A stretch of 36,124 bases of DNA from a virus, in IMG/VR virus record IMGVR_UViG_3300027788_001329, positions 1-36,124 of that record. The stretch is one strand, 5' to 3'. Below the pieces are notes generated by a model. That model saw only the letters and a list, made by a program, of their open reading frames with translations. It made no database searches and had not been told where the DNA came from. This document shows, piece after piece, positions 1,056-32,807 of this stretch. The number at the start of each line of letters is the position of its first letter. Positions within the stretch are counted from its first letter, which is position 1. The translations under genes and the position numbers were made by a program.

Positions 1056-1511
1056 ATGGGATATTACTCTGAAGTAGCTAGAGATATTAATAAGATCCCA
1101 GGAGCAATTAAGTTCTTTGAAGACGAGCTTATTGAAGCCCGAAGTGAAGTAAGACTAAAAGGTAATGTTGAACGTGCCGCGGCAGAAATGCCCGGCATCG
1201 TTGAACAACGTTTTAACCAACTTCAGGAAATTGAAGCTATTCTAAATTACCTAAATATTGAACTACGTAGAATGCGTAGTTCATTTTTTAAAAAATATCT
1301 TGAAAATTATCAACGTGCATTAAGTAGTAGAGACGTTGAAAAATATGTTGACGGCGAAGCAGACGTAGTTGATTATGAAAAGATTATTAATGAGTTTGCA
1401 TTACTTCGTAATAAATGGTTAGGTTTATTAAAAGGACTTGATCAAAAACAGTGGCAGATAACAAACGTTGTTAAGCTAAGGGTTGCGGGTATGGAAGATG
1501 CATCAGTATAA
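1056..1511 (+). CDS. uvsY: UvsY-like recombination mediator
   Basis: This 151-residue, mostly helical protein is rich in Lys, Arg and Glu. UvsY loads UvsX onto gp32-coated ssDNA. The assignment rests on position (second gene after uvsX), size (T4 UvsY is 137 aa) and the C-terminal pattern: a segment equivalent to T4's LQYWGILLD/GALDAIKSRGFAIKHIQDM reads here as LRNKWLGLLKGLDQKQWQIT followed by NVVKLRVAGMEDA. The N-terminal half has the long amphipathic helices expected of the hexameric protein. No catalytic motif is expected. Its last 14 bases overlap the first gene of the glycan island, so translation of the island's first gene is probably coupled to uvsY. Confidence 0.72.
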   Translation: MGYYSEVARDINKIPGAIKFFEDELIEARSEVRLKGNVERAAAEMPGIVEQRFNQLQEIEAILNYLNIELRRMRSSFFKKYLENYQRALSSRDVEKYVDGEADVVDYEKIINEFALLRNKWLGLLKGLDQKQWQITNVVKLRVAGMEDASV

Positions 1512-11771: not shown

Positions 11772-12545
11772 ATGAATGTAGTATTAGTCACAGGTGGATT
11801 TGACCCACTACACAGCGGGCATATTGCCTATTTTAAAGAAGCAAAGAAATTAGGCGATCAATTAATCGTTGGCCTAAATTCAGACGAATGGCTTGAGCGT
11901 AAGAAGGGCAAGGCATTTATGCCTTGGAATGAACGCCTATGCATTGTAAACAATTTACAAATGGTAGACGAAGTTTTTACATTTATGGACGATGATGATT
12001 CTGCTATAAATTTTATAAAACAAGTTAAAGCACACTATCCCAACGATAACATAATATTTGCTAATGGCGGCGACCGAACATCTGAAAACATTCCTGAGAT
12101 GGCAGTTGAAGGTGTAGAGTTTGTATTTGGCGTAGGTGGTACAGACAAAAAGAATTCAAGCAGTTGGATACTCAAAGATTGGGAAGCACCTAAGATAGAA
12201 CGTTCATGGGGACACTATAGAGAACTATATCAAGGAGATGGATTTCAAGTTAAAGAACTTGTAATTGCTCCGCATAGTAAACTTAGTATGCAACGACATC
12301 AACATCGTAGCGAAACATGGAACCTTGTAAGCGGAACAGCACATGTTAAGTTAAGCCGACGTCATACTGATCCATTTGACGGTGTAGGTATTTGGAATTT
12401 GCATCATGCTAACCCATTAGATATTCCATCTAACGTTTGGCACCAAGGTGTTAACGATAGTAGTGAGCCAGCTCATATTGTAGAAATATGGAAGGGCGAA
12501 ACAGATAAATTAAGAGAAGAAGATATAGAAAGGTGGGATCCATGA
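11772..12545 (+). CDS. Cytidylyltransferase - mannose-6-phosphate-isomerase-type cupin fusion
   Basis: This 257-residue protein has two domains. Residues 1-130 form a nucleotidyltransferase of the TagD/HldE-C type, with the HIGH-like motif HSGH (14-17) after TGGFDPL and a GLNSDEWLERKKGK segment. Residues 140-257 match the C-terminal cupin of type II mannose-6-phosphate isomerase/GDP-mannose pyrophosphorylase: RSWGHYREL, then QRHQHRSETWNLVSGTA (174-190) with metal-binding His, Gln and Glu, IPSNVWHQ and the terminal EEDIERWD. It probably makes a nucleotide-activated sugar or polyol and epimerises or isomerises it. The exact substrate (glycerol-P, heptose-P or other) cannot be told from sequence. 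Confidence 0.82.
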   Translation: MNVVLVTGGFDPLHSGHIAYFKEAKKLGDQLIVGLNSDEWLERKKGKAFMPWNERLCIVNNLQMVDEVFTFMDDDDSAINFIKQVKAHYPNDNIIFANGGDRTSENIPEMAVEGVEFVFGVGGTDKKNSSSWILKDWEAPKIERSWGHYRELYQGDGFQVKELVIAPHSKLSMQRHQHRSETWNLVSGTAHVKLSRRHTDPFDGVGIWNLHHANPLDIPSNVWHQGVNDSSEPAHIVEIWKGETDKLREEDIERWDP

Positions 12546-13227: not shown

Positions 13228-14091
13228 ATGGATAGGTATATAAAAAAACCAGACGACACTGAACTACCTAAGATGTTAATGCTAAATGGTGATGACGAGA
13301 TTATGAAACATTGGCAACATGGTACTAACGCTTTGGTAATTGATAGAAAACAGATATCAAGTAAAATTAGTGAAAGTCCTTGGCCTAATGATATTCCTGT
13401 AGCGTTTCGTAGTATGACCAAACGCAAAGAAATATGGAAGTGTTGGGAAACAGGTAGACCGTTTTATTATATCGATAACGGATACATGGGCAACTTAATG
13501 AAGAAGAAAAAGTATTATAGAGTTGTAAAAAATAATATCCAACACACAAAAATAAAACCAAACATGCCTGCTGATAGATATCGTGAGTTGTGTCAGTTTG
13601 CACCATACATGAATTATTATGGTAAAAAAGCTGTACAAGATGGAGCCATCTTACTAGTAACACCAAGCGAAAAACCTTGTCAATTTTATAACATTGATAA
13701 AAATACATGGCTTAAAGAAACAAAAACAGAACTTCGTAAATATACAGACCGTCCTATTATTATTAGAGAAAAAGGTTTGCGTCCAAACAGAATTAAAGAT
13801 AATAGTGTTGCCGCTCAATGTGCAAGAGAACAAATTCATTCTGTAGTTACATATCAAAGTATGGCCGCACTAGAAGCAATGCATTATGGTATTCCTGCAT
13901 TTACAACTGCACTTAGTTGTGTTGACAGTGTTGTTAATCGTAACTTAGCTGACATAGAGAATCCTAGCTATCCAGCTGAAGATGAATTTTTAAATTTACT
14001 ACACTATCTTGCTTATTGCCAATATACCCTAGATGAAATTAATAGAGGTGATGCACTAAGTATGATTGAAAGGATGAAATTATATGACTAG
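13228..14091 (+). CDS. KpsS-like capsule-type glycosyltransferase, paralogue B
   Basis: This 287-residue protein shares its C-terminal half with the genes at 1498, 14084 and 15860. Shared blocks are RPIIIREKG, a VVTYQSMAALEAMHYGIPAF segment, the LADIENPSYP motif and a HYLAYCQYTLDEINRGDAL tail. The N-terminal half has YYIDNGYMGN as in paralogue A (HLDNGYIGN). In KpsS/KpsC-type enzymes, the R-x-H/E-K and S-x-x-x-x-E-A-x-x-x-G-x-P segments line the nucleotide-sugar pocket; here the H of RxHP is replaced by E (REK), as in paralogue A. TATAAT lies four bases upstream of the ATG, but without a matching -35 it is not called a promoter. Confidence 0.62.
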   Translation: MDRYIKKPDDTELPKMLMLNGDDEIMKHWQHGTNALVIDRKQISSKISESPWPNDIPVAFRSMTKRKEIWKCWETGRPFYYIDNGYMGNLMKKKKYYRVVKNNIQHTKIKPNMPADRYRELCQFAPYMNYYGKKAVQDGAILLVTPSEKPCQFYNIDKNTWLKETKTELRKYTDRPIIIREKGLRPNRIKDNSVAAQCAREQIHSVVTYQSMAALEAMHYGIPAFTTALSCVDSVVNRNLADIENPSYPAEDEFLNLLHYLAYCQYTLDEINRGDALSMIERMKLYD

Positions 14092-15025
14092 GCCATTAAA
14101 AGTAAATGCATATATGAGTGCAATCCCTCCTGGAAACAAGAATCCAGAAAAGCCTAAACTATTAGAATACTTTGTTGAAGGTGTACAAAAGGCAGGCGAC
14201 AAGGGTAGAATTATTAATTCTTACACATACGAACCGTCAGACGTTGCTATTCTGCAAGGGTTTGTACATCCAGGAAGTAAGCATGTACCGCATTTAAATT
14301 TAAGACGTAATGTATTAGATGGACAAGCAAGCATTAGTAAACGAACAATTATTGCTGATAGTAATTTATTTTTAGCATATGATCCAGGTAATACAAAAAC
14401 ATATCTGCGTTATAGTTTTGATGGTATTTTTCCTAACACAGGCGAATATTGTGATAGTCAAATTTTACCAAAGCGTTGGGCAAACTTAAGAGATGATTTA
14501 GGTCTTGTACTAAAACCTTATAAAAAGTATGGAGATTATATTTTAATTACATGCCAACGAGATCAAGGGTGGAGTATGGACGGACTATCTGTTATTAATT
14601 GGTTGCATGTATTACTCCAAGAAATAAGAAGATATACTGACAGAAAAATATTAGTTAGATTTCATCCAGGTGATAAAAAGGTTTCAAAGCATGTACAGCA
14701 ACTACGGGCTATTGGACACAAAGTAGATATATCAAGCCCTACTAGTTCACTACTAAAAGATTTACACGATGCATATGCTGTAATTAGTTACAATAGTAGT
14801 CCAGCAGTTATTGCCGCAATTGAAGGCGTACCTGTCTTTGTACTTGACCCTACTAGAAGCCAGTCAGCAGAAGTTGCAAATAGGCATATAAAAGATATTG
14901 AGAATCCAAATATGGATTTTGATAGAGAAGCATGGCTACGTAGGCTAGCAATGATGCATTGGAGATTAGACGAACTACGCTCAGGAGAGTGTTGGCAACA
15001 TATGAGGAGTTGGGCTCACAGATGA
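14084..15025 (+). CDS. KpsS-like capsule-type glycosyltransferase, paralogue C
   Basis: This 313-residue protein is the longest of the four paralogues. Key segments are KILVRFHPGDKKVS (about 188-201, with the RxHP motif of Capsule_synth and Glyphos_transf families), AVISYNSSPAVIAAIEGVPV (232-251), HIKDIENPNMDFDRE (268-282) and the tail MHWRLDELRSGECWQHM. The order of RxHP, SxSSxxxxAxxxGxP and a C-terminal helix pair is that of GT-B enzymes that use CMP-Kdo or CDP-polyols. It overlaps paralogue B by 8 bases and the following gene by 4. With KdsA and KdsB encoded downstream, a Kdo transferase activity is a fair hypothesis. Confidence 0.65.
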   Translation: MTRPLKVNAYMSAIPPGNKNPEKPKLLEYFVEGVQKAGDKGRIINSYTYEPSDVAILQGFVHPGSKHVPHLNLRRNVLDGQASISKRTIIADSNLFLAYDPGNTKTYLRYSFDGIFPNTGEYCDSQILPKRWANLRDDLGLVLKPYKKYGDYILITCQRDQGWSMDGLSVINWLHVLLQEIRRYTDRKILVRFHPGDKKVSKHVQQLRAIGHKVDISSPTSSLLKDLHDAYAVISYNSSPAVIAAIEGVPVFVLDPTRSQSAEVANRHIKDIENPNMDFDREAWLRRLAMMHWRLDELRSGECWQHMRSWAHR

Positions 15026-15870
15026 AAAAAATAACAGTACTAACAACATTCCATCAACCAGGATTAGAAAAATACGGACAGCGTATGATTGATAGCTTTG
15101 CTAAAAGAGTTGATTCTAAAATTAAATTAATTGTGTATGCAGAAGATTGTAAGCCGAGTAATCCTAATCCAGAGCAAATTACAATACTAGATGCAATAGA
15201 AGTATTGCCTAAATTAAATGCATTCAAAGCACGTTGGAGCAACGTAGATAAAGCAAACGGAATTCCTCCAGACGATATCAAAGCAAGACGACCAAGGGAC
15301 TGGCATAAGAAGTTTAAGTGGGACGCTGTACGCTTCGCTAATAAAACATACGCTGTGTATGACGCTTGTACACGCTCTAAGGACTGGTGTGTGTGGATGG
15401 ATGCGGATACATTTGTACACAGTGATTGGTCATATGAACAGTTTGCAGAACAACTTCCAGATGATAAATGGATTACATATGTAGGTAGAGGCAAAGGATC
15501 ACAGACATGGCCGGAGTGTGGGTTCTACGGTATGAATATAAATCATCCTATGTGCATACAGTTCTTAAAAGAGTTTGAAAGATTTTACGAAGATGCAGAC
15601 AATGGTATCTTCGAATTAGAAGAATGGCACGACAGTTATGTGTTTGGACACATACTAAACTTAATGAGAAACATTGATCCTAACGTACATGATTACAGTG
15701 AAAACATCTATGTACAAACTGCTAAGACTGGCGGAGGAGGACATCCACTTATTAATAGTGATTTAGGAAAATGGATTGATCATATGAAAGGCGCCCGTAA
15801 GGACGATGGACATTCGAAGCGAAAAGACCTAATGGGTAATCGTAACGAATCGTATTGGAATGAAATTTAG
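15022..15870 (+). CDS. GT-A glycosyltransferase with DAD motif
   Basis: This 282-residue protein starts at the ATG at 15022, inside an ATGA overlap. It opens with KITVLTTFHQPGLEKYGQRM, a first strand and helix with a Tyr/Gly loop, and carries the metal site DWCVWMDADTFVHS (DAD). An ECGFYGMNINHPMC segment and an EWHDSYVFGHILN segment follow, in the positions expected for the acceptor strand and the metal-binding His of GT-A transferases. A YVQTAKTGGGGHPLINSD loop lies near the C-terminus. It sits between two KpsS-like copies, so it may act on the same chain. Confidence 0.68.
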   Translation: MKKITVLTTFHQPGLEKYGQRMIDSFAKRVDSKIKLIVYAEDCKPSNPNPEQITILDAIEVLPKLNAFKARWSNVDKANGIPPDDIKARRPRDWHKKFKWDAVRFANKTYAVYDACTRSKDWCVWMDADTFVHSDWSYEQFAEQLPDDKWITYVGRGKGSQTWPECGFYGMNINHPMCIQFLKEFERFYEDADNGIFELEEWHDSYVFGHILNLMRNIDPNVHDYSENIYVQTAKTGGGGHPLINSDLGKWIDHMKGARKDDGHSKRKDLMGNRNESYWNEI

Positions 15871-16696
15871 TTTATGGACACAGTATGGCGCACTTAATAG
15901 TAAGCCTATTTTTGATGCTTTTGCAAATAGCCTTAACAGTAACGGGCATGTTGTTGTTTATAATGATTCTAGTGCCGATATTAATGTTATTTGGAGCGTG
16001 TTGTTTAATGGAAGAATGGCTGGAAACAAAGCAGTCTGGGAACAACAAAAACCAACAATAGTATTAGAAGTTGGCGGCATTAAAAGAGGTACAACCTGGA
16101 AAGTAGGATTAAATGGGATTAATAGAGATGCTTACTTTGGTCCTAGTAGCAACAACAATACTCGTGCTAATGAACTAGGTCTTAAATTATCTCCGTGGAA
16201 GTACACTGGCGAGTATATTCTTATAGCAGGTCAACATGATAAGAGTTTACAATGGAAAGATATGCCTAGTATGGCTACTTGGGTACACGATACAATAACG
16301 TTTATTCGAGCCCAAACTGATCGTCCTATTATATTTAGACCACATCCGCGTTGTCCGTTACCTGCTATTGAACACGACTTTAAAGATGTTAAAAGACAAA
16401 CTCCTAAGCAAATACAAAACACATATGATGACTTTGATATGCAGTTTGACAACATATGGGCTACAGTTAGTTGGTCAAGTAACCCGGGCATACATAGTGT
16501 AATCAACGGTGTGCCAGCATTTACCGGCCCAAGTAGTTTAGCATTTGATGTAGCAGAGCAAAATTTACGCAACATTGACAATCCTTTATATTGTGATAGA
16601 ACACAATGGCTAAACGATTACGCACATACGGAATATACTATTGAAGAAATTTCTCAAGGAATTCCATTAAAACACTTGACTTCTAAGTTAATTTAA
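15860..16696 (+). CDS. KpsS-like capsule-type glycosyltransferase, paralogue D
   Basis: This 278-residue protein ends the glycan island. It has RPIIFRPHPRCPLP (155-168, full RxHPR motif), ATVSWSSNPGIHSVINGVPA (201-220), NLRNIDNPLYCDRTQ and a HTEYTIEEISQGIPLKHL tail, the same order as paralogue C. The N-terminal domain, with HVVVYNDSSADINVIWSVL, looks like the acceptor domain of GT-B enzymes. Its last bases contain the -35 box of the next promoter (16676-16681), so the gene ends inside the control region of the following unit. Confidence 0.66.
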   Translation: MKFSLWTQYGALNSKPIFDAFANSLNSNGHVVVYNDSSADINVIWSVLFNGRMAGNKAVWEQQKPTIVLEVGGIKRGTTWKVGLNGINRDAYFGPSSNNNTRANELGLKLSPWKYTGEYILIAGQHDKSLQWKDMPSMATWVHDTITFIRAQTDRPIIFRPHPRCPLPAIEHDFKDVKRQTPKQIQNTYDDFDMQFDNIWATVSWSSNPGIHSVINGVPAFTGPSSLAFDVAEQNLRNIDNPLYCDRTQWLNDYAHTEYTIEEISQGIPLKHLTSKLI

Positions 16697-16710: not shown

Positions 16711-17931
16711 ATGATAATAGAGAAACCATCTACGTGTGAAGACTGTCTGACCTATTTACTAGGCAAGTGTAAAGTATCGATAGACGATAAACCTATACTA
16801 GTAAGTTTGAATAAGCAGTTGAATAGAAAAGTTGCATTAACTGATCGGCAATTTGCATTACTAAAAGGCAAACTGTTAAACTACTCTCGAGTATGGTTTG
16901 ACGAAGATGTTGATATAGAGACTGTTGTTAATAATTTAAAGTATCCGTTAAGAGAAATAGATAGATCGCATTGGCTTAAAATTCTTACATATAACGACGA
17001 GGATCTTCTTGGAATTAGATTCCCTTTTAATAAAAAAGTCATTGATAGAATTGAAGAGTTACGTAATATGGAGCCTAAGAATAATCTAAAGTATAAAGAT
17101 AATACTCATTACTTCCATCTTACACCAAAGAACGTTTTTGGATTAGTTGAAATAGCAAAACGGTTTGAAACTAAATTTGTTATACATGATGAAATTTTAG
17201 AAATATATAATCAACTAATAGAGTATGAGAAGAATTGGGCTGACTATGTGCCAGGCATATATGATTACAAAGTTTGTAATATTCCTGATGTAGCAATCGA
17301 AAACTTAAAAAATGAACTAGGCGATTGTAATAAAGATACGTTATCTTTATATTATGATAGGAGATACTTGTACGGGTTAGAAGAATTTAATTACGACTTA
17401 GTTGATCAAAGTATTAAGAAGCATACTATTATAGCTCAGCATATTATTAAAAGAGATAAGTCAGTTGTATTAATTAATAATAAATCTGTTAACTTAAATG
17501 ATCTATTGTCAGCAATATACGAAATTGGTAGACTGCCAATGTTAGTTATTCTTACTCCTAATACTGCACATGATACATTATTTGAAATACATAATGTACT
17601 TAAAAATATTATTCCTTCTGAAGAAATGGCTGTATTATTTAGAAAAGATGGCACTGATCTGTTTAATGAGTATGTTAAAACACAAAAACTTAATAATATG
17701 GTTGACATTAACACTAAAGTAGTGTATATTAGTAGTATAAAGTTACCTAAGCCATTATTACAATCAGATTGGCATGCAAGCTGTAGTTTATCTTTTGATA
17801 GCTCTAAGTTAACATACAATCATGTTAGTGGATATGTAGACACATTTGATCTACGTATTACATATGACGAAATTGGAATTGGTGGACTTTGGGACAGAAC
17901 TGAGCGGAGATACATACGTGCGAACATGTAA
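16711..17931 (+). CDS. Unrecognised 406-aa phage protein upstream of uvsW
   Basis: I do not recognise a domain in this 406-residue protein. It has an N-terminal CxxC pair within STCEDCLTYLLGKC (8-21; three Cys), which could bind a metal, and a C-terminal half rich in beta-branched residues with a VILINNKSVNL/LPMLVILTPN region that could be an alpha/beta domain. It is transcribed from the strong promoter P1 and its end overlaps the uvsW start by 14 bases. The position suggests a partner of UvsW in recombination or replication restart, but this is only inference from position. The CxxC plus helicase neighbour could suggest a nucleic-acid-binding adaptor. Confidence 0.75.
   Translation: MIIEKPSTCEDCLTYLLGKCKVSIDDKPILVSLNKQLNRKVALTDRQFALLKGKLLNYSRVWFDEDVDIETVVNNLKYPLREIDRSHWLKILTYNDEDLLGIRFPFNKKVIDRIEELRNMEPKNNLKYKDNTHYFHLTPKNVFGLVEIAKRFETKFVIHDEILEIYNQLIEYEKNWADYVPGIYDYKVCNIPDVAIENLKNELGDCNKDTLSLYYDRRYLYGLEEFNYDLVDQSIKKHTIIAQHIIKRDKSVVLINNKSVNLNDLLSAIYEIGRLPMLVILTPNTAHDTLFEIHNVLKNIIPSEEMAVLFRKDGTDLFNEYVKTQKLNNMVDINTKVVYISSIKLPKPLLQSDWHASCSLSFDSSKLTYNHVSGYVDTFDLRITYDEIGIGGLWDRTERRYIRANM
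17906..17920 (+). promoter_or_regulatory. Ribosome binding site that sets the uvsW start
   Basis: GGAG at 17906-17909 is followed by 8 bases and GTG at 17918. Upstream in-frame starts (TTG 17846, ATG 17864) have no such site, and the GTG start gives an N-terminus that aligns in length with T4 UvsW. Confidence 0.6.
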
Positions 17932-19381
17932 ACTAGTTATTGAAGATGAAGTAAATATTAAGCTAGAAGGACTAGAGGTAGATGTACGGAGAAAACTTGC
18001 AAGTGCATTAAAGTTTGAAGTACCTTATGCTCGATACATGCCGCAATATAAATTAGGCCGCTGGGATGGTAAAGTTGCTTTCTTTGGTATAGGCGGCACC
18101 GGTTATGTTAATCACCTTGACGTAGTGCAAGAAGTCCTTGCTAAAAATAATGTAAAAATAGTTGACATTGACGACCGAAGACATCCTATTGATTTAAAGT
18201 TTACACATGTTACAGAACGTTATTGGGCAGACCAAGGTGTATGTTGGCCCGAAGGACATCCTGTAGCAGGTACAGAAATTATCCTGCGAGATTATCAAGT
18301 TGAAGCTATTAATAACTTCCTTGACAATCCACAGAGCTTGCAACAGATCGCGACTGGAGCAGGCAAGACTATCACCACTGCGACACTAAGTCACATGACA
18401 GAAAGATACGGGCGTAGCCTAGTTATCGTCCCCAATAAGAGTCTCGTCGAGCAAACGGAAGAGGACTACATTAATTGTAATCTGGATGTGGGTGTGTACT
18501 TTGGTGATAGGAAACAATTAGGTAAGACTCATACTATTTGTACTTGGCAAAGTTTAAATATCTTAGATAAGAAAACAAAAGATGGCTCAGCAGTATTGTC
18601 GTTAGCAGAGTTTTTAGAAGGCGTGAGTACTATTATTATTGACGAAGTACACCAAGCAAAAGCAGAAGTACTTAAAAATTTGTTAACACGTAACTTACGT
18701 AATGCTCCAATTCGTTGGGGACTAACAGGAACAGTACCTAAAGAACAGTTTGAATTTCAAAGTATACATGCTAGTTTAGGTCCTGTAATTGGAAACATTA
18801 CAGCAAAAGAGTTACAAGACAAAGGTGTGTTATCTAACTGCCATGTTAATGTGTGCCAGTTAATTGATACAGTAGCACACAGCGATTATCAATCAGAATT
18901 AAAATATCTTGTTTCTAACGAAGCAAGAATAGAATATATGTCAAAACTGTTAACTAAGATATCACAAGCCGGTAATACACTGATACTAGTTGATAGAATC
19001 TCAGCAGGGCAGATGCTTGCTGAGTTAATACCTGATAGCACTTTCATAAGCGGAAGTGTTAAAGTAAAAGACCGGAAAGAAACCTATGATACAATTAAAA
19101 AAGGTACCAATGAAGTGATTATTGCAACCTATGGTGTTGCGGCTGTTGGTATTAATATCCCTAGGATCTTTAATCTTGTGCTTATTGAGCCGGGCAAGAG
19201 TTTTGTTCGAGTAATACAATCAATTGGTAGAGGCGTAAGAAAGGCTGAAGACAAAGACTTCGTACAAATATGGGACTTGACATCAACATGCAAGTACGCG
19301 AAGCGACATCTAACTCAACGTAAGAAGTTTTACAAAGAGGCAGAGTATCCCTTTACAATCGAAAAAATAGACTGGAATTAA
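17918..19381 (+). CDS. uvsW: UvsW-type recombination DNA helicase
   Basis: This 487-residue protein (GTG start) is a superfamily 2 helicase that in T4 drives branch migration and fork regression and ends origin-dependent initiation by unwinding R-loops. The N-terminal domain includes YMPQYKLGRWDGKVAFF, which matches T4's RFNPRFRYGNWDGRIRLL. Motif Q region LRDYQVEAI is followed by Walker A ATGAGKT (145-151), Walker B DEVH (242-245), motif III GLTGT and motif VI QSIGRGVRK near 424-432. Length is close to T4 UvsW. It overlaps the preceding gene by 14 bases and is part of the P1 transcription unit. Confidence 0.94.
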   Translation: MRTCKLVIEDEVNIKLEGLEVDVRRKLASALKFEVPYARYMPQYKLGRWDGKVAFFGIGGTGYVNHLDVVQEVLAKNNVKIVDIDDRRHPIDLKFTHVTERYWADQGVCWPEGHPVAGTEIILRDYQVEAINNFLDNPQSLQQIATGAGKTITTATLSHMTERYGRSLVIVPNKSLVEQTEEDYINCNLDVGVYFGDRKQLGKTHTICTWQSLNILDKKTKDGSAVLSLAEFLEGVSTIIIDEVHQAKAEVLKNLLTRNLRNAPIRWGLTGTVPKEQFEFQSIHASLGPVIGNITAKELQDKGVLSNCHVNVCQLIDTVAHSDYQSELKYLVSNEARIEYMSKLLTKISQAGNTLILVDRISAGQMLAELIPDSTFISGSVKVKDRKETYDTIKKGTNEVIIATYGVAAVGINIPRIFNLVLIEPGKSFVRVIQSIGRGVRKAEDKDFVQIWDLTSTCKYAKRHLTQRKKFYKEAEYPFTIEKIDWN

Positions 19382-20254: not shown

Positions 20255-21016
20255 ATGTTAACAAAACTTTTAGAAGGTGTAGACAAGGCGCTTGTCAGGA
20301 ATCTTGTGATTCTACACACCCTAGTAATTGCAGTAAGTAATTACTTGGTAACAATTAGATTTGATCTATTCCCGGGTGCAGAGTTGCCCTTATTTGGATC
20401 ATTTCCACTAGCGGCGGCGGCGTTTACATTTCCGATCGTTGTAATTGCAACTGACCTTACAGTACGTATGGTAGGTAAGCAAGCAGGTAGAGCTGTTGTA
20501 GCAATGGCTATTATTCCTGCTATTGTAGTATCGGTACTTGTGCTATTAGCACTAGGTGACGAACATGCATATAGAGTAGGTATAGCATCAGGTGTAGCAT
20601 ATGCAGTAGGTACAATGCTTGATGTATATGTGTTCCAACACATTCGTGAGCGTATGAGTGCATGGTGGATTGCACCAGCAGTATCAACTATTGCGGCAAA
20701 CATTATTGATACATATGCTTTCTTCTACACAGCATTTTATCCTGCACCTTGGGTTGCAGAGGTAGCATTAAATAATACACTTACAAAAATTGTTATAGGA
20801 CTAATTGTATTCCTTCCAGCATACGGTATATTGTTAAAATGGATGCAAGGCAAAGTAGTTGTAGAAGCACCTAAGCCAGTAGCTAAAAAGACTACTAAAG
20901 TTAAAGCTAAAGCACCAGCTAAAACTGGAGGCAAAAAAGCAGGCGAGCTAAGTATGACTCCAACTGCTATTAAGCAACGTGAAGCACGAGCTAAAGCAAA
21001 AGCGAAAAAGGTATAA
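20255..21016 (+). CDS. yhhQ: YhhQ/VUT-family queuosine-precursor transporter with Lys/Ala-rich tail
   Basis: This 253-residue inner-membrane protein aligns over its first ~200 residues with E. coli YhhQ, which imports 7-deazaguanine (preQ0/preQ1). Matching blocks are LHTLVIAVSNYLV, FTFPIVVIATDLTVRM, MLDVYVFQHIRE, WWIAPAVSTIAANIIDT and FLPAYGILL; there are about six transmembrane segments (near 15-35, 52-72, 82-100, 108-126, 140-160, 176-196). The last ~50 residues are unlike YhhQ: a Lys/Ala/Pro-rich, histone-like tail. The start follows a strong AGGAG. Phages use such transporters to supply precursors for 7-deazaguanine in DNA or tRNA; no deazaguanine-DNA gene is seen here. Confidence 0.9.
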   Translation: MLTKLLEGVDKALVRNLVILHTLVIAVSNYLVTIRFDLFPGAELPLFGSFPLAAAAFTFPIVVIATDLTVRMVGKQAGRAVVAMAIIPAIVVSVLVLLALGDEHAYRVGIASGVAYAVGTMLDVYVFQHIRERMSAWWIAPAVSTIAANIIDTYAFFYTAFYPAPWVAEVALNNTLTKIVIGLIVFLPAYGILLKWMQGKVVVEAPKPVAKKTTKVKAKAPAKTGGKKAGELSMTPTAIKQREARAKAKAKKV

Positions 21017-21019
21017 ATG

Positions 21020-21043
21020 CGTTGGGTAATCTTATACCCAACG
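21020..21043 (+). promoter_or_regulatory. Perfect 9-bp hairpin over a TTG start
   Basis: CGTTGGGTA (21020-21028) and TACCCAACG (21035-21043) form a 9-bp stem with a 6-base loop. The TTG start of the next gene (21022) lies inside the left arm. No run of T follows, so it is not a standard terminator. An 11-codon ATG frame (21017-21052) runs across it in a different frame. Confidence 0.4.
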
Positions 21044-21294
21044 AAGCACTAATATACGAGCGAGCCAACGGTGTTGTGTTCGCTCGTTATCGTGACCCGC
21101 CACACAATAAACAACCTAGATGGGTTATTGGTGGTGAACCAAATGCTACAGCAAGAGCATTAGGAATTGTAAGTTATGACGAATGGAAAGAAGTAATGTC
21201 AATTGCAGAAAAAGATCCAAACGTTAAAAAACAACTTGACAGATTAATGATTATGTATTATACTGTTAAAGATGAATTAAAGGAAAACGAATGA
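21022..21294 (+). CDS. Small hypothetical protein with TTG start inside a hairpin
   Basis: This 90-residue protein has no recognisable domain. No ATG occurs in frame near the N-terminus; the TTG at 21022, with AAGG about ten bases upstream, is the best start. The protein begins with a NLIPNEALIYERANGVVFAR segment, then PRWVIGGEP and a helical C-terminus with KQLDRLMIMYYTVKDEL. The start is inside a hairpin, which would reduce translation unless the stem is opened. It overlaps kdsA by 4 bases, so it may couple to the sugar operon. Confidence 0.6.
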   Translation: MGNLIPNEALIYERANGVVFARYRDPPHNKQPRWVIGGEPNATARALGIVSYDEWKEVMSIAEKDPNVKKQLDRLMIMYYTVKDELKENE

Positions 21295-22064
21295 GAATTA
21301 TAGCAGGCCCATGCCAACACGAGACATTAGCACAGTCAGCAGAAATTGCTGAAGAGTGCAAACGTGTATGTGACATGCACGGAATTGAATACATATTCAA
21401 AGCAAGCTATGATAAAGCTAATCGCAGTAGCGAACAAGGCAAACGAGGTATTGGCTTAGGCCCCACACTAGAAGATTTTCGTACATTAAAAAAACAATAC
21501 AATATACAAACGTTAACTGATGTACACGACGAATTACAAGTTGAACAAATTATGTATGCATATAGTGATGCAGTAGATGTATTACAAATTCCTGCATTCT
21601 TATGTAGACAAACTGATTTAATTAAAGCGGCTTGTGCTACAGATAAAATTGTTAATATTAAAAAAGGACAGTTCCTTGCACCGTGGGACATGACTGGCAT
21701 ATTAACTAAAACAGAAGGTGCTAAAGAAGTTTGGATTACCGAACGAGGAACAAGTTTTGGATATAACACATTGGTTGTCGACTACACCGGTCTACTTTAC
21801 ATGTTGGATAATTTTAGCGAGCCATTGGTTCTTGATTGTACACATGCTGTACAAAAGCCCGGGGGACTTGGTGGCTCGTCAGGCGGTAATCGTAACTACG
21901 TGCCTGGCGTGGCTCGCTCTGGCAGTGCTCTTGGTATTTCATCGTTCTTCTTAGAAGTCCATAAAGACCCTGATAATGCACCTAGTGACGGTCCAAATAT
22001 GTTACACTTAGATGACTTCGAACAAGTTGTAAACGATATAGTTAAGTATAATTATGAACGATAA
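21291..22064 (+). CDS. kdsA: 3-deoxy-D-manno-octulosonate 8-phosphate synthase
   Basis: KdsA condenses phosphoenolpyruvate with arabinose-5-phosphate to give Kdo-8-phosphate. This 257-residue protein has all hallmark blocks: FKASYDKANRSS (36-47), LTDVHDELQ (75-83), QIPAFLCRQTDL (99-110), SFGYNTLVVDYTG (155-167), CTHAVQKPGG (183-192) and LEVHKDPDNAPSDGP (221-235). An AGPC motif with Cys8 at the N-terminus, plus His185, Glu222 and Asp233, match the four ligands of the metal-dependent class of KdsA; the metal-free E. coli enzyme has Asn in place of that Cys. Length is close to normal (about 265-285). It overlaps hemE by 11 bases. Confidence 0.95.
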   Translation: MRIIAGPCQHETLAQSAEIAEECKRVCDMHGIEYIFKASYDKANRSSEQGKRGIGLGPTLEDFRTLKKQYNIQTLTDVHDELQVEQIMYAYSDAVDVLQIPAFLCRQTDLIKAACATDKIVNIKKGQFLAPWDMTGILTKTEGAKEVWITERGTSFGYNTLVVDYTGLLYMLDNFSEPLVLDCTHAVQKPGGLGGSSGGNRNYVPGVARSGSALGISSFFLEVHKDPDNAPSDGPNMLHLDDFEQVVNDIVKYNYER

Positions 22065-23031
22065 ATTTCAAAATGCATGTAATAGGGCAGAACAATCAAC
22101 ACCTCCAATTTGGATGATGCGACAAGCGGGTAGATACCAAAAAGGTTACATGGCAATGAAAGAAGATTGGTCATTTGAACAAATGTGTAAGCTACCTCGT
22201 ATAGCCGCAAAAGTTGCTATGCTACCAATAGAACAATTTGATTTTGATATTGCAATATTGTTTAGTGATATATTATTCCCAATCGAAGGGCTTGGCGTTC
22301 CTTTAAAGTTTGATCCTGGCCCACAGTTTGAATGGACTATTAACGAAGACAACTATAAAGATCACTCCAATATTGAATTAGCAATTAAGCATATGGAGTT
22401 CCAAGCAAGAGCAGTAACAACAACAAGAGAAATGTTGCCTTCTAATAAAAGTCTTATTGGCTTTGTTGGTGGCCCTTGGACATTATTAAATTATGCTACA
22501 GGTAAAAATCCTAAGCTAAGTTTAAAATGGAAAACACAATACTTGCGTGAAGTTATTGTTCCTGTACTATATAGAAATATAAATTTGCAATTAGATGCAG
22601 GTGCTGAAAAAGTAATGATATTAGATAGTGGTGTAGGCAATATGAGTGAGCAGTATTTTAAGAAAGAATACGTTAACTTATTACAACCACTAATACAAAC
22701 TGACACAGGATATTACACACAACATTTAAATGCAAACTGCTTACCTACATTATATAAAATGGGATGGGCAGGCATAGGAGTTGACAGTATTGTTGACATT
22801 ACTAAAACATTTAAGAAATACAAGGACGGATTTATACAAGGCAATTTTGATGAAAAACTTTTATTGTTACCTAAAGAAGAATGTCGATCGCACATTGAAG
22901 ATTTTTGTAACACAATGCAAACAGTTGACCATACTGGTTGGGTTTGTGGACTTGGACATGGCATAACAAAAACTACTCCGGAAGAAAATGTAAAAATGTT
23001 CGTAGATATGATTAGAGAGAGATTTAAATGA
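22054..23031 (+). CDS. hemE: Uroporphyrinogen decarboxylase
   Basis: HemE converts uroporphyrinogen III to coproporphyrinogen III in heme and chlorophyll synthesis. This 325-residue protein aligns end to end with bacterial HemE: PIWMMRQAGRYQKGYM (18-33, Arg23), AILFSDILFPIEGLG (67-81, Asp72), IGFVGGPWTLLNYATG, a VMILDSGVGN segment, GFIQGNFDEKLL and the terminal GLGHGITKTTPEENV (299-313, His302). The catalytic Asp and the substrate-binding Arg and His are all present. HemE is usually about 350 residues; the missing length is in short loops. It overlaps kdsA by 11 bases and kdsB by 4. The adjacent Kdo genes have no metabolic link to it. Confidence 0.93.
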   Translation: MNDKFQNACNRAEQSTPPIWMMRQAGRYQKGYMAMKEDWSFEQMCKLPRIAAKVAMLPIEQFDFDIAILFSDILFPIEGLGVPLKFDPGPQFEWTINEDNYKDHSNIELAIKHMEFQARAVTTTREMLPSNKSLIGFVGGPWTLLNYATGKNPKLSLKWKTQYLREVIVPVLYRNINLQLDAGAEKVMILDSGVGNMSEQYFKKEYVNLLQPLIQTDTGYYTQHLNANCLPTLYKMGWAGIGVDSIVDITKTFKKYKDGFIQGNFDEKLLLLPKEECRSHIEDFCNTMQTVDHTGWVCGLGHGITKTTPEENVKMFVDMIRERFK

Positions 23032-23690
23032 AAACAGCAATACTAATACCAGCACGTTTAGAAAGTACACGTTATCCAAATAAAATGTTAGTTGAACTAG
23101 ATGGTAAGCCGTTAATTCAACGAGTATATGAAGCATGTAAAGAAACAGTTTACGACACGTATGTTGTTACAGACAGCGAAGAAATAGCAAGCCTAGTTCC
23201 TAATTCTATTATGACTAAAGACGCAACTAACGGTACTGAAAGATGTGCTATGGCCGCAGAAGGATTAGATTATGATTACTTTGTAAACGTACAAGGTGAT
23301 ATGCCTGATGTTACTGAGGATATGATTTATAATGTAGTAGAGCAATTAAAAGAATATGAAGTGTCAACTTTATATACTGACATGAGAGAAGAGGACCAAG
23401 ATAAACCTGATAGTGTTAAACTAATTAAATCAAATAACAAAGTGTTATGGATGGGTAGAGGAATGACAGGATACGGAAATTGGCATTTAGGTATATACGG
23501 ATATGCTAAAGTTGCACTGAGCATGTACAGAAATTTAGATCTGCACTTAGAAGAAGCCACTGAAAAACTAGAGCAACTACGTTGGTTAAAGAACGGTATT
23601 GATATTGGTTGCGCCTGGACTAAATTTGATGGTGTGGAAATAAACACCGAAGAAGATATTCATCTTTGGAATGACAAAAATAATGCTTGA
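23028..23690 (+). CDS. kdsB: CMP-Kdo synthetase (3-deoxy-manno-octulosonate cytidylyltransferase)
   Basis: KdsB couples Kdo to CTP to give CMP-Kdo, the donor for Kdo transferases. This 220-residue protein has PARLESTRYPNK (8-19, the CTP-binding loop), TNGTERCA (67-74), YFVNVQGDMP (84-93), NWHLGIYGY (151-159), EKLEQLRWLKNG (179-190) and DGVEINTEEDI (201-211). Bacterial KdsB has about 248 residues; the central dimerisation loop is shorter here. The related sialic-acid synthetases lack this block set, so KdsB is the better call. It is the last gene of the kdsA-hemE-kdsB trio and its stop lies right at promoter P2. Confidence 0.93.
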   Translation: MKTAILIPARLESTRYPNKMLVELDGKPLIQRVYEACKETVYDTYVVTDSEEIASLVPNSIMTKDATNGTERCAMAAEGLDYDYFVNVQGDMPDVTEDMIYNVVEQLKEYEVSTLYTDMREEDQDKPDSVKLIKSNNKVLWMGRGMTGYGNWHLGIYGYAKVALSMYRNLDLHLEEATEKLEQLRWLKNGIDIGCAWTKFDGVEINTEEDIHLWNDKNNA

Positions 23691-26752: not shown

Positions 26753-27313
26753 ATGCCTGATATTGATATTGACTTTGCGGATAGAGGTATTGTTTTATCT
26801 AAAATAAAACATCGAGTAGCAAAATTGCCTACTGGTAAGAAACATAACACTGGTGTGTATGTGACTGAAGTTCCACACAATCCGTTTAACGAATTATCAA
26901 CTATCAACTATAAAGATGCAGAAGAACGAGGATACTTTAAACTAGACTTTCTTAACGTAAGCATATACGATAAGGTAAGCAACGAAGAACACTTACGACA
27001 ACTAATGAACAAGGAACCAATATGGGAACTATTAGAAACAAAGGACTTTTGCGATCTAGTATTTCATGTATCAGGTCATCACGAACTAATCAAAAAACTA
27101 AAGCCAAAGAATATCCCACAACTGGCCGCTGTATTAGCTATCATACGTCCAGCAAAGAGACACTTACAAGATAGTGATTGGAATACTATTATGGATCAAG
27201 TTTGGGTTAAACCTAAAGAAGGATACTTCTTTAAAAAGGCACATGCTGTCAGTTACGCTGTAGCAGTTGTGGTACACATGAACTTAATCTGTGAGGATCT
27301 AAATGCGTTATGA
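26753..27313 (+). CDS. Miniature DNA polymerase III alpha-like protein
   Basis: This 186-residue protein is a highly reduced relative of bacterial PolC/DnaE (C-family polymerase, about 1,160 aa). It retains in order PDIDIDF (2-8; equals the catalytic D401/D403 pair of E. coli DnaE), GYFKLDFLNV (60-69; equals KFDFLGL with D555), a CDLVFHVSGHHELIKKLKP segment matching the AVFQLES..LIKRLQP region, LAIIRPAKR (128-136; equals LFRPGP) and KKAHAVSYA (161-169; equals NKSHSAAYA). So all three catalytic Asp positions and parts of palm and fingers remain while most of the fold is deleted. It may bind DNA or a host replisome part. Polymerase activity is doubtful. Confidence 0.7.
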   Translation: MPDIDIDFADRGIVLSKIKHRVAKLPTGKKHNTGVYVTEVPHNPFNELSTINYKDAEERGYFKLDFLNVSIYDKVSNEEHLRQLMNKEPIWELLETKDFCDLVFHVSGHHELIKKLKPKNIPQLAAVLAIIRPAKRHLQDSDWNTIMDQVWVKPKEGYFFKKAHAVSYAVAVVVHMNLICEDLNAL

Positions 27314-28959: not shown

Positions 28960-29955
28960 ATGAGCATAGTCTATGATACACTGATACAATACTTACCTGC
29001 AAAACGTAAAACAACCCCTAGTGGGTGGACCTCGTTTAATGCACCCTGTTGTATACACAACGGTGACAGTGCAGACAAACGACAACGTGGCGGACTAATA
29101 TCCAATGCAGATGACGGTGTTAGTTATCATTGTTTTAATTGTGGGTTCAAAGCAAGCTGGCAACAAGGACGTAACCTTAGTGGTAAGATGCGTAAACTAT
29201 TGCAATGGCTAAACACTCCAGATGATATCATTAACAAACTTGCGTTAACTGTTATGCAAGAGAACGAAGGCTTTACAATAACACAACAACTAGTTGAGTT
29301 ACCTAAGTTTAACACAGTACCATTGCCAGATGATGCTGTTAAGATTGCAGACATAACAGACTTCAGCAAGTACAGTATGTCTATACTTGAATATATGTCA
29401 GTACGAGGACTTAATTTAGACGACACTGATTATTATTGGTCTCCTAGTTTAGGATATAGAGATCGTTTGATCATTCCTTTTTATTATGAAAAACGTATTG
29501 TAGGTTGGACTGCTAGAACAGTACAAGCTGATAAACAACCAAAGTACATGAGCGAACAACAACCTGGCTTTGTATACGGATTAGATGAACAAGGATATAA
29601 CAAAGTATTTTGTATAGTGTGTGAAGGACCTATGGATGCTATACATATTGATGGTGTAGCACTTCTCGGATCGGAGATTAAAGATCAACAAGCTATGCTA
29701 ATTAATAAAGTAGACAAGCAAATTATTGTAGTTCCTGACAGAGACGAAGCAGGTTCTAAATTAATAGATCAAGCAATTGAGCTTGGATGGTCAGTTAGTT
29801 TACCAGAATGGTCTGATGACATTAACGACATTGGTGATGCAGTTGCAAAGTATGGCAGACTGTATACACTCTATAGTATCGTTAACAACGCAGAGTCTAA
29901 TGAATTAAAGATTAGATTAAGGAGTAAAAAATGGTTAAGTGGTTTAAAAAAGTAA
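28960..29955 (+). CDS. 61: DNA primase (gp61-like)
   Basis: In T4, gp61 makes RNA primers with gp41 for lagging-strand synthesis. This 331-residue protein (T4 gp61: 342) has a zinc-ribbon with Cys30, Cys31, His33 and Cys58, Cys61 (PCCIHNGD and YHCFNCGF). The TOPRIM fold has CEGPMDA (220-226) with the catalytic Glu221 and PDRDEAG (258-264) with the paired Asp. RDRLIIPFYYEKRIVGWTAR (166-185) fits the region before TOPRIM in bacterial DnaG-type primases. The gene is directly behind promoter P3. The last bases overlap a small ORF (29931) by 25 bases. Confidence 0.92.
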   Translation: MSIVYDTLIQYLPAKRKTTPSGWTSFNAPCCIHNGDSADKRQRGGLISNADDGVSYHCFNCGFKASWQQGRNLSGKMRKLLQWLNTPDDIINKLALTVMQENEGFTITQQLVELPKFNTVPLPDDAVKIADITDFSKYSMSILEYMSVRGLNLDDTDYYWSPSLGYRDRLIIPFYYEKRIVGWTARTVQADKQPKYMSEQQPGFVYGLDEQGYNKVFCIVCEGPMDAIHIDGVALLGSEIKDQQAMLINKVDKQIIVVPDRDEAGSKLIDQAIELGWSVSLPEWSDDINDIGDAVAKYGRLYTLYSIVNNAESNELKIRLRSKKWLSGLKK

Positions 29956-30049: not shown

Positions 30050-30271
30050 ATGACTGAATTTACAAAAGGCATAGGAAGCATATTTAAAAACAATAGTCTT
30101 ACACTAGCCTTAATCTATACTATGGGACATATAGTTATTGCTATGTCAGTAGTAAGTGTAATGACAGGAGCAAGTCTATTTGAAGCAGGATCAGTTGCAT
30201 TAGTTGAACCTGCAATTAACGGAGTTTGGTTTTACGTGTTACATAAACTATGGACAAAATATAATGATTAA
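30050..30271 (+). CDS. DUF2061-like small membrane protein
   Basis: This 73-residue protein has two hydrophobic segments (about 17-42 and 45-66), with the family-like IYTMGHIVIAMSVVSVMTGA stretch and a C-terminal EPAINGVWFYVLHKLW element. That order matches the small DUF2061 family of predicted membrane proteins. Its role is unknown. AAGGAG precedes the ATG. It overlaps the carbamoyltransferase gene by 8 bases. Confidence 0.65.
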   Translation: MTEFTKGIGSIFKNNSLTLALIYTMGHIVIAMSVVSVMTGASLFEAGSVALVEPAINGVWFYVLHKLWTKYND

Positions 30272-31226
30272 ATGGGGAATGGTAGGCAACAGTCACGATG
30301 CTAGTTTAGCAGTCTTTGACGATGACGAATTGTTATGGGCAAGTCTTTCAAAAGACTTTAGTAAGGTTCCTAACGATCCAGACTTTAATTGGACACAGCT
30401 GGAAGTAGCTAGACAAAGTTTTGGTCCTCCACAAAAAGTTATATGGTATGAACGTCCGTTCCTTAAAACACTTCGACAGTGGAGAGCAGGACAAGGTTGG
30501 TTACGCGAAGAAAATGATATACGAAAATATCTAAAACGATGGGGCATTAATTGTAAGATTGAATATACACAACATCATTTATCACATGCGGCATATGCTT
30601 ATTATACACAGCCAGAAGATGATTGTGCAGTAGTGTGTTTAGATTCAATAGGTGAGTTTGAAACACTAACAGTATGGCATGGTATGAACAATAAACTTAA
30701 AAAGATATACAGCCAAAGCTATCCACATAGTTTAGGTTTGTTCTATAGTGCTATGACACAACGACTTGGACTTGTACCTAACCGTGATGAATATCTTGTA
30801 GCACAGATGGCCGCTAAAGGTAATCATAAGATCTACAGCAAAAGGATTTTAAAAGAACTGTTACACGTATTAGGTAACGATCCAGCTATACATTGCAGAG
30901 AAAATTTACATAGAGGATGTATGTGGTGGGCACCTGATATTACATCAGAGCAACAACTAAACGACTTAGCGGCCGCAGTACAAAAAGTATTTGAACTTTC
31001 TGTTAAACACGTTACAGAGTGGGCTAAGAAAAGAACTGGCTCTAAGCACCTTGCATTAGCAGGTGGTGGAGCACTTAATAAAGATGCAGTAGATAAAATA
31101 AGACGTAAATGGAAAAGCGTATATGTGCCACAGAACCCGGGAGACCCTGGATCTTGTATAGGTGCTGTATTAGCTAAAACAAAAACCAAAGTAGGACTTG
31201 ACAAACAGTGGTATCAGAAGCTATAA
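30264..31226 (+). CDS. Carbamoyltransferase, one-domain (NodU/TobZ N-terminal type)
   Basis: NodU/TobZ-type enzymes carbamoylate sugars using carbamoyl phosphate and ATP. This 320-residue protein starts at ATG 30264 (30204 is an in-frame start inside the previous gene). It has NSHDASLAVF (9-18), TQHHLSHAAYAYY (102-114, the metal-binding His motif), CLDSIGEFETLTVW (125-138), SLGLFYSAMTQRLGL and LALAGGGALNKDAV with VPQNPGDPGSCIGAVL near the end. These are the Kae1-like N-terminal domain. The usual C-terminal domain of about 200 residues is missing (whole enzymes are about 550-600 aa), so the protein is truncated or is a natural one-domain form. Confidence 0.78.
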   Translation: MIKWGMVGNSHDASLAVFDDDELLWASLSKDFSKVPNDPDFNWTQLEVARQSFGPPQKVIWYERPFLKTLRQWRAGQGWLREENDIRKYLKRWGINCKIEYTQHHLSHAAYAYYTQPEDDCAVVCLDSIGEFETLTVWHGMNNKLKKIYSQSYPHSLGLFYSAMTQRLGLVPNRDEYLVAQMAAKGNHKIYSKRILKELLHVLGNDPAIHCRENLHRGCMWWAPDITSEQQLNDLAAAVQKVFELSVKHVTEWAKKRTGSKHLALAGGGALNKDAVDKIRRKWKSVYVPQNPGDPGSCIGAVLAKTKTKVGLDKQWYQKL

Positions 31227-31258: not shown

Positions 31259-31369
31259 ATGATGGAAGTTGTTGGCAGTGACATTCCAGATGCGGAAAAA
31301 ATAATAGTGGTAAATCAATATATAGATATACTAAAAGACTTAGAGAAGGCAATTAATGGACAAGACTAG
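31259..31369 (+). CDS. Small ORF before gp41
   Basis: This 36-residue ORF begins with a double ATG (MMEVVGSDIPDAEKIIVVNQ then YIDILKDLEKAINGQD) and is acidic and helical. It overlaps the gp41 start by 14 bases. A longer form from GTG at 31208 would be 53 residues, but its start lies upstream of the predicted transcription start, so the ATG form is preferred. No homologue is recognised. It could couple translation into gp41. Confidence 0.5.
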   Translation: MMEVVGSDIPDAEKIIVVNQYIDILKDLEKAINGQD

Positions 31370-32807
31370 ACAGAATACAGATTACGGATACGACATACAA
31401 AAACTATATTTAGAGATGATGCTAACAGATGCAGAGTCTTTTGTTAGGTGTCAGGCTGTATTTGATCCTAGTGCATTCGACAGACGCTTAGAAGCTAGTG
31501 CGGCATTCTTAAACACATACGTTAGTGAGCATAATGCATTGCCTACATTTGAAATGATTAATGCGGCAACTAAAATAGATTTAAAAAATCCAGGTGATCT
31601 AAAAGAAGAACACTATGATTGGTTACTTGCAGAGTTTGAAACATTTAGTAGACACAAAGCACTAGAAGCCGCAATACTTAAAAGTGCAGACTTACTTGAA
31701 AAAGGTGAGTATGGTCCAGTAGAAGATCTAGTTAAGAAGGCTGTGCAAATTGGTTTACAAAAAGACTTAGGTACAGATTACTTTAACGATCCAAGAGCTA
31801 GACTAGAAGCAATTAAAAGTAATAACGGACAAGTAAGCACAGGCTGGGCCGCTATTGATAAGAAACTATTTGGTGGATTCAACAGAGGCGAGCTTAATAT
31901 ATTTGCAGGTGGATCAGGTGCAGGTAAGAGTTTATTCTTAGCTAACCTAGGAGTTAACTGGGCATTACAAGGTATGAACGTTTTGTATCTAACATTAGAG
32001 CTTAGTGAAAACTTAGTTAGTATGCGTGTTGATAGTATGATAACAGATGTACCAAGTCGCGATGTGTTTAAGAACATTGACGATGTTGAAATGAAAGTCA
32101 AGATGATTGGCAAGAAGTCAGGTGCATTCCAAGTTAAGTATATGCCTTCAGGCAAGACACCTAATGATATAAGAAGTTATATTAAAGAGTATGAAATTAA
32201 AACAGGCAAGAAAGTAGACGTACTACTGTTAGACTATTTAGATTTGCTTATGCCCAACGGTGCAAAGGTAAGTGCAGAGAACTTGTACATCAAAGACAAG
32301 TACGTATCAGAAGAGTTACGTAACTTAGCAATGGAATTAAACTGTGTATTTGTTACAGCCGCACAGTTGAACCGTGGTGCAGTGGAAGAAATAGAATTTG
32401 ATCACTCGCACATATCAGGTGGACTTAGTAAGATACAAACAGCAGACAACGTGTTTGGTATCTTTACAAGTAGAGCAATGCGTGAACGTGGACGTTATCA
32501 GTTACAGTTAATGAAGACACGTAACAGTGGCGGAGTAGGACAAAAGATCGATCTAGGATTTGATATTAACACATTACGTATCATGGACTTAGATGAAGAT
32601 GACGATGATAGCGGAAATACAAGTGGATACACAAGTAGTGGTGGCCAAAACACTAACAGTATTGTAAGTAATCTTAGACGTCAGAACACACAACAACCTG
32701 ATCTAAATGCAGATCCAGGAGACGGTGAAACAGTTAAGAAAGTTAAAGCGGATGTTGATTCAACTAAACTTAGATCTTTTATTAATAACCTTGGAAGCAA
32801 TGACTAA
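31356..32807 (+). CDS. 41: Replicative DNA helicase (gp41/DnaB-like)
   Basis: gp41 is the hexameric 5'-3' replicative helicase that works with primase gp61. This 483-residue protein (T4 gp41: 475) has the DnaB-type C-terminal ATPase: FAGGSGAGKSLF (Walker A GGSGAGKS, 185-192), LYLTLELSENLVSMRV, the Walker B strand VDVLLLDYLDLL (287-298), VFVTAAQLNR and the FDHSHISGGLSKIQTADNVF segment with a Ser/Gly turn. The N-terminal domain is helical as in the family. A Ser/Asp/Gly-rich linker (about 425-465) near the C-terminus is probably disordered. It ends in a TAATG overlap with the next gene. Confidence 0.95.
   Translation: MDKTRQNTDYGYDIQKLYLEMMLTDAESFVRCQAVFDPSAFDRRLEASAAFLNTYVSEHNALPTFEMINAATKIDLKNPGDLKEEHYDWLLAEFETFSRHKALEAAILKSADLLEKGEYGPVEDLVKKAVQIGLQKDLGTDYFNDPRARLEAIKSNNGQVSTGWAAIDKKLFGGFNRGELNIFAGGSGAGKSLFLANLGVNWALQGMNVLYLTLELSENLVSMRVDSMITDVPSRDVFKNIDDVEMKVKMIGKKSGAFQVKYMPSGKTPNDIRSYIKEYEIKTGKKVDVLLLDYLDLLMPNGAKVSAENLYIKDKYVSEELRNLAMELNCVFVTAAQLNRGAVEEIEFDHSHISGGLSKIQTADNVFGIFTSRAMRERGRYQLQLMKTRNSGGVGQKIDLGFDINTLRIMDLDEDDDDSGNTSGYTSSGGQNTNSIVSNLRRQNTQQPDLNADPGDGETVKKVKADVDSTKLRSFINNLGSND

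Follow-up and report, generated by a model that had tools for sequence, protein, structure and literature searches.

We show here that a viral record of 36,124 bases (linear; IMG/VR IMGVR_UViG_3300027788_001329; hereafter the window, meaning this whole stretch of DNA) carries intact genes for two enzymes of 3-deoxy-D-manno-octulosonic acid (Kdo) metabolism, kdsA and kdsB, with a full-length hemE between them, and encodes in the same genome several proteins with a predicted Kdo-transferase fold (Table 1). We favor, with a probability of roughly 45%, the reading that the phage makes cytidine monophosphate (CMP)-Kdo and that its own Kdo-transferase-fold enzymes spend it, remodelling a surface glycan of the infected cell. 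Phage KdsA would catalyze the committed step, from phosphoenolpyruvate and arabinose-5-phosphate to Kdo-8-phosphate, and phage KdsB the activating step, from Kdo and cytidine triphosphate (CTP) to CMP-Kdo, while the isomerase KdsD and the phosphatase KdsC would be supplied by the host. The extra CMP-Kdo would most likely be used by the glycosyltransferases of the same genome that share the Kdo-transferase fold. Infected cells would then have Kdo, or a related CMP-sugar, added to one of their glycans, most likely in the envelope, and their surface would change during infection. Enzyme activity, sugar donor, acceptor, timing, benefit and host are what we infer in this scheme.

Table 1. Genes of the cassette and paralogs with a predicted Kdo-transferase fold in the window.
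Feature	Coordinates	Strand	Basis or remark
Distant paralog of 13228-14091, 263 aa, no HP motif	1483-2274	+	Homology only: 29% identity, E about 1e-13
Paralog without HP motif, predicted Kdo-transferase fold, 287 aa	13228-14091	+	AF2 model, Foldseek, own alignment
GT22, GT24 paralog, 313 aa, Q + RxHP	14084-15025	+	32% identity to GT24; by homology, GT24/GT22 alignment
GT24, Kdo-transferase-fold protein, 278 aa, invariant Q125, RxHP, S207	15860-16696	+	AF2 model, Foldseek, motif columns
Open reading frame of 90 aa, no assigned function	21022-21294	+	4-bp overlap of its stop with the kdsA start; also found ahead of kdsA in related contigs
kdsA, Kdo-8-phosphate synthase, 257 aa, Cys (metal-dependent) type	21291-22064	+	NCBIfam, PDB, conserved residues
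hemE, uroporphyrinogen decarboxylase, 325 aa	22054-23031	+	Pfam URO-D, PDB UroD matches, conserved residues
kdsB, CMP-Kdo synthetase-like cytidylyltransferase, 220 aa, Asn at one Mg-ligand position	23028-23690	+	Pfam, PDB, motifs

The kdsA-hemE-kdsB cassette

Gene identities, adjacency, overlaps, conserved residues, the predicted transferase fold and the kdsC/kdsD non-matches were all computed. KdsA scores above the curated equivalog cut-offs of NF003543 (327.7 bits, cut-off 242) and TIGR01362 (314.9 bits, cut-off 314), and models of 3-deoxy-D-arabino-heptulosonate-7-phosphate synthase score far below the KdsA models on the same protein. The best PDB chain is 3fs2 (E=1.4e-78). Residues C8, H185, E222 and D233, which by the positions in the Aquifex enzyme correspond to the Cys, His, Glu and Asp metal ligands of the metal-dependent class, are invariant in an alignment of 37 viral sequences. 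The protein is, as judged from its sequence, a Kdo-8-phosphate synthase, and its use of arabinose-5-phosphate is predicted from the family score. A tree of 97 KdsA proteins (a quick tree with Shimodaira-Hasegawa-like approximate likelihood ratio test (SH-aLRT) supports, without bootstrap) places all 51 proteins from viral contigs in a single supported clade that excludes the bacterial ones (SH-aLRT 98). KdsA identity within the viral group is 68-80%, and the bacterial KdsA retrieved are at most 52% identical to the viral clade. KdsB matches Pfam CTP_transf_3 with 91 bits (cut-off 22.6), and its PDB matches are all KdsB except the weakest (best 2y6p, E=4.5e-24). Its CTP-binding loop, IPARLESTRYPNK at 7-19, has all of the residues P8, R10, T14, R15 and K19, in the same numbering as in Aquifex KdsB (PMC3149649). 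The protein stays under every NCBIfam kdsB equivalog cut-off (best model 171 bits, cut-off 193).

The genes are packed tightly. The open reading frame (ORF) of 90 aa, which has no Pfam, NCBIfam or PHROG match, overlaps kdsA by 4 bp, kdsA overlaps hemE by 11 bp and hemE overlaps kdsB by 4 bp; because the reading frames overlap, the four are probably translated together. We surveyed viral kdsA in the best 80 of at least 179 IMG/VR places that encode close KdsA relatives. At most 250 bp separate kdsB from the preceding kdsA in 67 of these 80 loci; kdsB lies farther away, with an interposed gene, in five, and none was found downstream in eight (L004, L041, L043, L047, L048, L051, L052 and L058, each with 5-10 kb of downstream sequence). 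The pairing is far above chance. A sequence-only reading of this DNA had proposed a phage-encoded CMP-Kdo branch made of kdsA and kdsB, and the curated models, PDB matches, conserved residues and synteny bear out both the branch and the presence of two intact genes. It had overlooked the hemE that separates them and that does not belong to Kdo chemistry. Members with hemE are scattered over the viral KdsA clade (six changes, at least four of them forced by supported branches), so hemE appears to have been repeatedly gained or lost at the kdsA/kdsB junction. In one viral contig (L006, 10749-11631) two overlapping ORFs, radical-SAM-like as judged by eye, occupy hemE's place at this junction.

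The same reading had expected the phage to rely on its host for KdsC and KdsD. Searches of 34 related contigs, all of them fragments, with models of KdsC (TIGR01670) and KdsD (TIGR00393) found nothing; the positive controls did match. The window and six large related contigs, among them a kdsAB-bearing contig of 357 kb, contained no match to a SIS domain of the KdsD type, and the ORFs of the window showed nothing KdsC-like, although the KdsC model was not run on the window or on the 357-kb contig. These negatives are consistent with reliance on the host and support the expectation; the contigs are fragmentary, so absence from the full genomes is not proven.

Predicted Kdo-transferase-fold proteins and the proposed use of CMP-Kdo

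The four paralogs that start at 1483, 13228, 14084 and 15860 have no usable Pfam, PHROG or PDB sequence match. Marginal, sub-threshold matches to Pfam Capsule_synth in 7 of 35 records are a lead only; the Capsule_synth (KpsC/KpsS) type was suspected from sequence and then tested by structure prediction. The AlphaFold2 (AF2) model of the protein that we call GT24, built from 50 aligned viral sequences, has a mean predicted local distance difference test (pLDDT) score of 93.6. In a Foldseek search covering 350,542 PDB chains its top 26 matches are all Kdo transferases (KpsC, WbbB, KrkA), the best with E=1.7e-6 and a template modelling (TM) score of 0.56. A model of the protein at 13228-14091 from a separate alignment (pLDDT 89.4) retrieves Kdo transferases as its first 17 PDB matches and as 21 of the first 22. 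Kdo transferases make up almost all significant PDB matches of both models. Two independent models thus place the paralogs in the fold of the retaining Kdo transferases GT99, GT107 and GT140. In these enzymes a QxxxD motif provides the nucleophilic Asp and (K/R)xHP, whose His and Pro occur in each of the three families, binds CMP (PMC12887879). GT24, GT22 and their relatives have an invariant RxHP together with an invariant Gln and phosphate-site Ser, matching the CMP-Kdo-binding elements described there; the HP motif is absent from the proteins at 13228-14091 and 1483-2274. Fold and CMP site suggest that the phage paralogs are CMP-sugar transferases. Upstream sequence exceeds 6.5 kb in 47 kdsA loci, and 43 of these carry the transferase-like gene. 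Caulobacter phages CcrSC, C1, RB23, J4 and others encode proteins, annotated as hypothetical, that are distantly related (22-26%) to the Kdo-transferase-fold protein. No publication on phage Kdo transferases turned up in the literature searched.

Several observations weigh against the reading that the phage spends its own CMP-Kdo through these proteins. Its main weakness is an asymmetry between GT24 and kdsAB. Among 38 uvsW loci with both flanks, 19 have GT24 and kdsA, 16 have GT24 without kdsA and three have neither, so that no kdsA lies near GT24 in 16 of the 35 GT24-bearing loci. The contigs of those 16 loci (up to 262 kb) gave no match to kdsA or to a CTP_transf_3/CMP-sugar synthetase, which argues that the transferase does not need phage CMP-Kdo; a tight coupling of GT24 to kdsAB is accordingly rejected. 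Four kdsA loci have neither uvsW nor GT24 in their upstream stretch. Either host CMP-Kdo serves GT24, with kdsAB raising the supply, or GT24 uses another CMP-sugar. The earlier proposal of an altered host lipopolysaccharide or a Kdo-containing glycan thus gains from the Kdo-transferase-fold paralogs in the same genome and loses from relatives that carry the transferase without kdsA or a CMP-sugar synthetase. The Foldseek TM-scores of the paralog models are moderate (0.34-0.56). The QxxxD nucleophile, essential in KpsC, WbbB and KrkA and present along with KxHP in our bacterial KpsC/KpsS-type controls, is missing in the GT24/GT22 family, where the Gln is invariant and Ser or Gly stands at +4; because of this absence the phage paralogs are placed, by motif, outside GT99, GT107 and GT140. 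Finally, the Aquifex KdsB structure holds Mg-A between D95 and D219, which are called strictly conserved (PMC3149649). Viral KdsB keeps the first ligand (D91) and has N206 in place of D219, so that the two ligand aspartates are not both present, and all 47 non-redundant viral KdsB have an E-I-N motif instead of the canonical VD(T). The statement that both enzymes carry all visible catalytic blocks thus holds for KdsA and fails at this position of KdsB. Bacterial KdsB-like proteins from kdsA loci of Oceanicola sp. S124 (L129) and another genome (L158) share this Asn, as E-L-N, so the change is not viral decay.

A rival reading is that kdsA and kdsB merely sustain lipid A-Kdo synthesis of the host, keeping the outer membrane sound through a long infection, and that the transferase-like genes are unrelated. 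Loci with GT24 and no kdsAB, on contigs without a CMP-sugar synthetase, and the kdsA loci without GT24 would fit such upkeep. The frequency of the Kdo-transferase-fold gene at kdsA loci speaks against it, and the large glycosyltransferase/methyltransferase block of the window exceeds what envelope upkeep would need; on balance we regard this role as rather unlikely. Another possibility is that kdsA, hemE and kdsB are host-derived passengers, swapped among phages and devoid of a joint function or strong benefit. The scattered distribution of hemE, the radical-SAM-like ORFs at the same junction and the kdsA loci without kdsB would all be expected of such cargo. However, the genes stay open, keep their active-site residues and retain their order in viral contigs that have diverged deeply (68-80% identity for kdsA, 72-86% for hemE), which argues for selection on the enzymes and makes mere carriage improbable. 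A similarly small chance, if anything a shade smaller, is left for a product that is a CMP-activated 3-deoxy sugar related to Kdo but distinct from it, used by divergent transferases. The sub-threshold KdsB scores, the uniform E-I-N motif and the lack of the canonical nucleophile in the transferases would suit this idea, but KdsA passes the Kdo-8-phosphate synthase cut-off, bacterial KdsB-like proteins of kdsA loci share the Asn, and the nearest solved structures to viral KdsB are KdsB. Bacterial contamination or a chimeric assembly, to which the lack of any kds or hemE match in PHROGs could point, is refuted by the repeated synteny: numerous independent contigs share the gene order between uvsW and the helicase, including one whose sequence here is essentially identical to that of the window, and the viral proteins form their own clades in trees.

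The hemE gene and the phage lineage

HemE matches Pfam URO-D with 222 bits (cut-off 23.9) and its PDB matches are UroD structures; it stays below the cut-off of TIGR01464 (208 vs 302.95 bits). Residues R23, R27, D72, Y147, S192 and H302 do not vary among the aligned viral proteins and line up with their counterparts in bacterial HemE; this Arg pair, Asp, Tyr, Ser and His are the conserved UroD active-site residues, all of which the window protein has. Viral HemE of kds-type contigs are 72-86% identical to that of the window, bacterial HemE (seven genomes with a match) 31-33%. We tallied the context of 80 viral hemE loci: kdsA and/or kdsB adjoin in 22, hemF and/or hemC in 43, and 15 have no marker within the sequence stretch examined. 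The order hemF-hemC-hemE-hemB is found in 12 of the 43 hemF/hemC-type loci. On a 107-kb viral contig (L100) hemF and hemC score above curated cut-offs and hemB below (171 bits, cut-off 297). This cassette spans 8294-11823 of L100 and occurs also in L247-L252, L254-L256, L265, L267 and L096, on contigs of at most 107 kb and with no kdsAB within the stretch examined. Near it, at 15022-16086 of L100, lies a gene for an AlkB/desaturase-type membrane protein, judged by eye. A second viral hemE group (L268-L307, 52-58% identical) mostly has hemC and/or hemF downstream, and at least seven of its members have no recognized gene context.

Because the same family occurs in heme cassettes, the hemE of the window very likely has a genuine tetrapyrrole function. 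We also weighed repurposing as a sugar enzyme and rejected it, the active-site residues being intact and relatives lying in hem cassettes. Nor is there support for a longer heme pathway encoded by this phage: neither the window nor the related kdsA-hemE-kdsB contigs that we searched (largest 115 kb) matched hemF or hemC. On its own, HemE would send uroporphyrinogen III down the heme branch, away from siroheme and B12. We therefore regard hemE as a separate auxiliary gene, probably translated with the kds genes, that may divert the host's uroporphyrinogen III in this way. No publication on viral hemE turned up in the literature searched.

The source is a marine T4-type phage. The window encodes a UvsW-like helicase (17846-19381), a primase (28960-29955) and a DnaB-type helicase (31356-32807). 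Nearest cultured relatives of UvsW are Sinorhizobium phage Phosso (469 kb, 56%) and Agrobacterium phage Atu_ph07 (490 kb, 50%), followed by the Pseudomonas PA5oct group (about 285 kb, 49-50%); helicase and primase point to the same cultured relatives. Given the size of these relatives, and of related viral contigs as long as 262-383 kb, the window probably represents a fragment of a jumbo phage genome. An alphaproteobacterial host is our guess from the nearest cultured relatives. Host assignment through kdsB similarity failed, as alphaproteobacterial KdsB are at most 30-44% identical to the window protein. A more ambitious reading, in which a widespread marine jumbo phage lineage carries a self-contained Kdo-glycan module for envelope or virion, combining CMP-Kdo supply with a new Kdo-transferase-fold family without a covalent Asp nucleophile, and with hemE as a heme-branch switch in the same transcript, we consider unlikely as a whole.

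Other genes of the window include one for a membrane protein of the Vut_1/queuosine-precursor-transporter type immediately upstream of the kds cassette (20255-21016), an RfaE/HldE-type nucleotidyltransferase domain fused to a mannose-6-phosphate-isomerase-type cupin (11772-12545), and a 340-aa carbamoyltransferase-type protein that matches the N-terminal family model only (30204-31226). A short stand-alone gene (26753-27313) encodes a 186-aa DNA polymerase piece (PHROG 11778) that starts PDIDIDFADR like DnaE.

Comparison with known systems

Viral kdsA and kdsB are already reported cargo: both are listed as auxiliary metabolic genes of marine viruses (PMC10653327), and KdsA was found in a T4-like environmental viral genome (PMC5332604). 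New, as far as the literature searched goes, are the position of hemE between kdsA and kdsB, the occurrence of one viral HemE family in both heme and Kdo cassettes, and a widespread family of unannotated phage proteins predicted to have the Kdo-transferase fold. Lists of marine viral genes hold kdsA and kdsB with no known use of their product, and the predicted fold of the neighbouring proteins offers a concrete, testable consumer. The paralogs are a candidate new phage glycosyltransferase family, missed by sequence searches and linked by structure prediction only. The viral HemE family would add a further point at which phages may redirect tetrapyrrole flux of the host.

With the bacterial KdsA-KdsB-KdsC-KdsD pathway the phage shares the first committed and the activating enzyme; KdsC and KdsD were not found, and its KdsA belongs to a clade well separated from the bacterial proteins retrieved. 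The marine viral kdsA/kdsB reported before (PMC10653327, PMC5332604 and Synechococcus phage S-SCSM2R) concern the same two enzymes, beside other glycan genes as in the window. The first two sources list the genes and do not describe this gene order. Cultured phages hold distant kdsA or kdsB relatives only; the annotated KdsA and KdsB of S-SCSM2R, for example, are 37% and 36% identical to those of the window, and their genes lie on opposite strands with no hemE between them. The phage paralogs have a predicted fold in common with KpsC (GT107), WbbB (GT99) and KrkA (GT140), and two of them also share (K/R)xHP and the Gln, but they lack the QxxxD nucleophile, are shorter and have no detectable sequence similarity. 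Tetrapyrrole genes are known from phages, namely AlaS, HemO and PcyX (PMC11480375) and, in pelagimyophages, coproporphyrinogen oxidase and porphobilinogen deaminase (PMC7029224). The window has the biosynthetic role in common with these systems and differs from them in carrying hemE alone, inside a Kdo gene pair.

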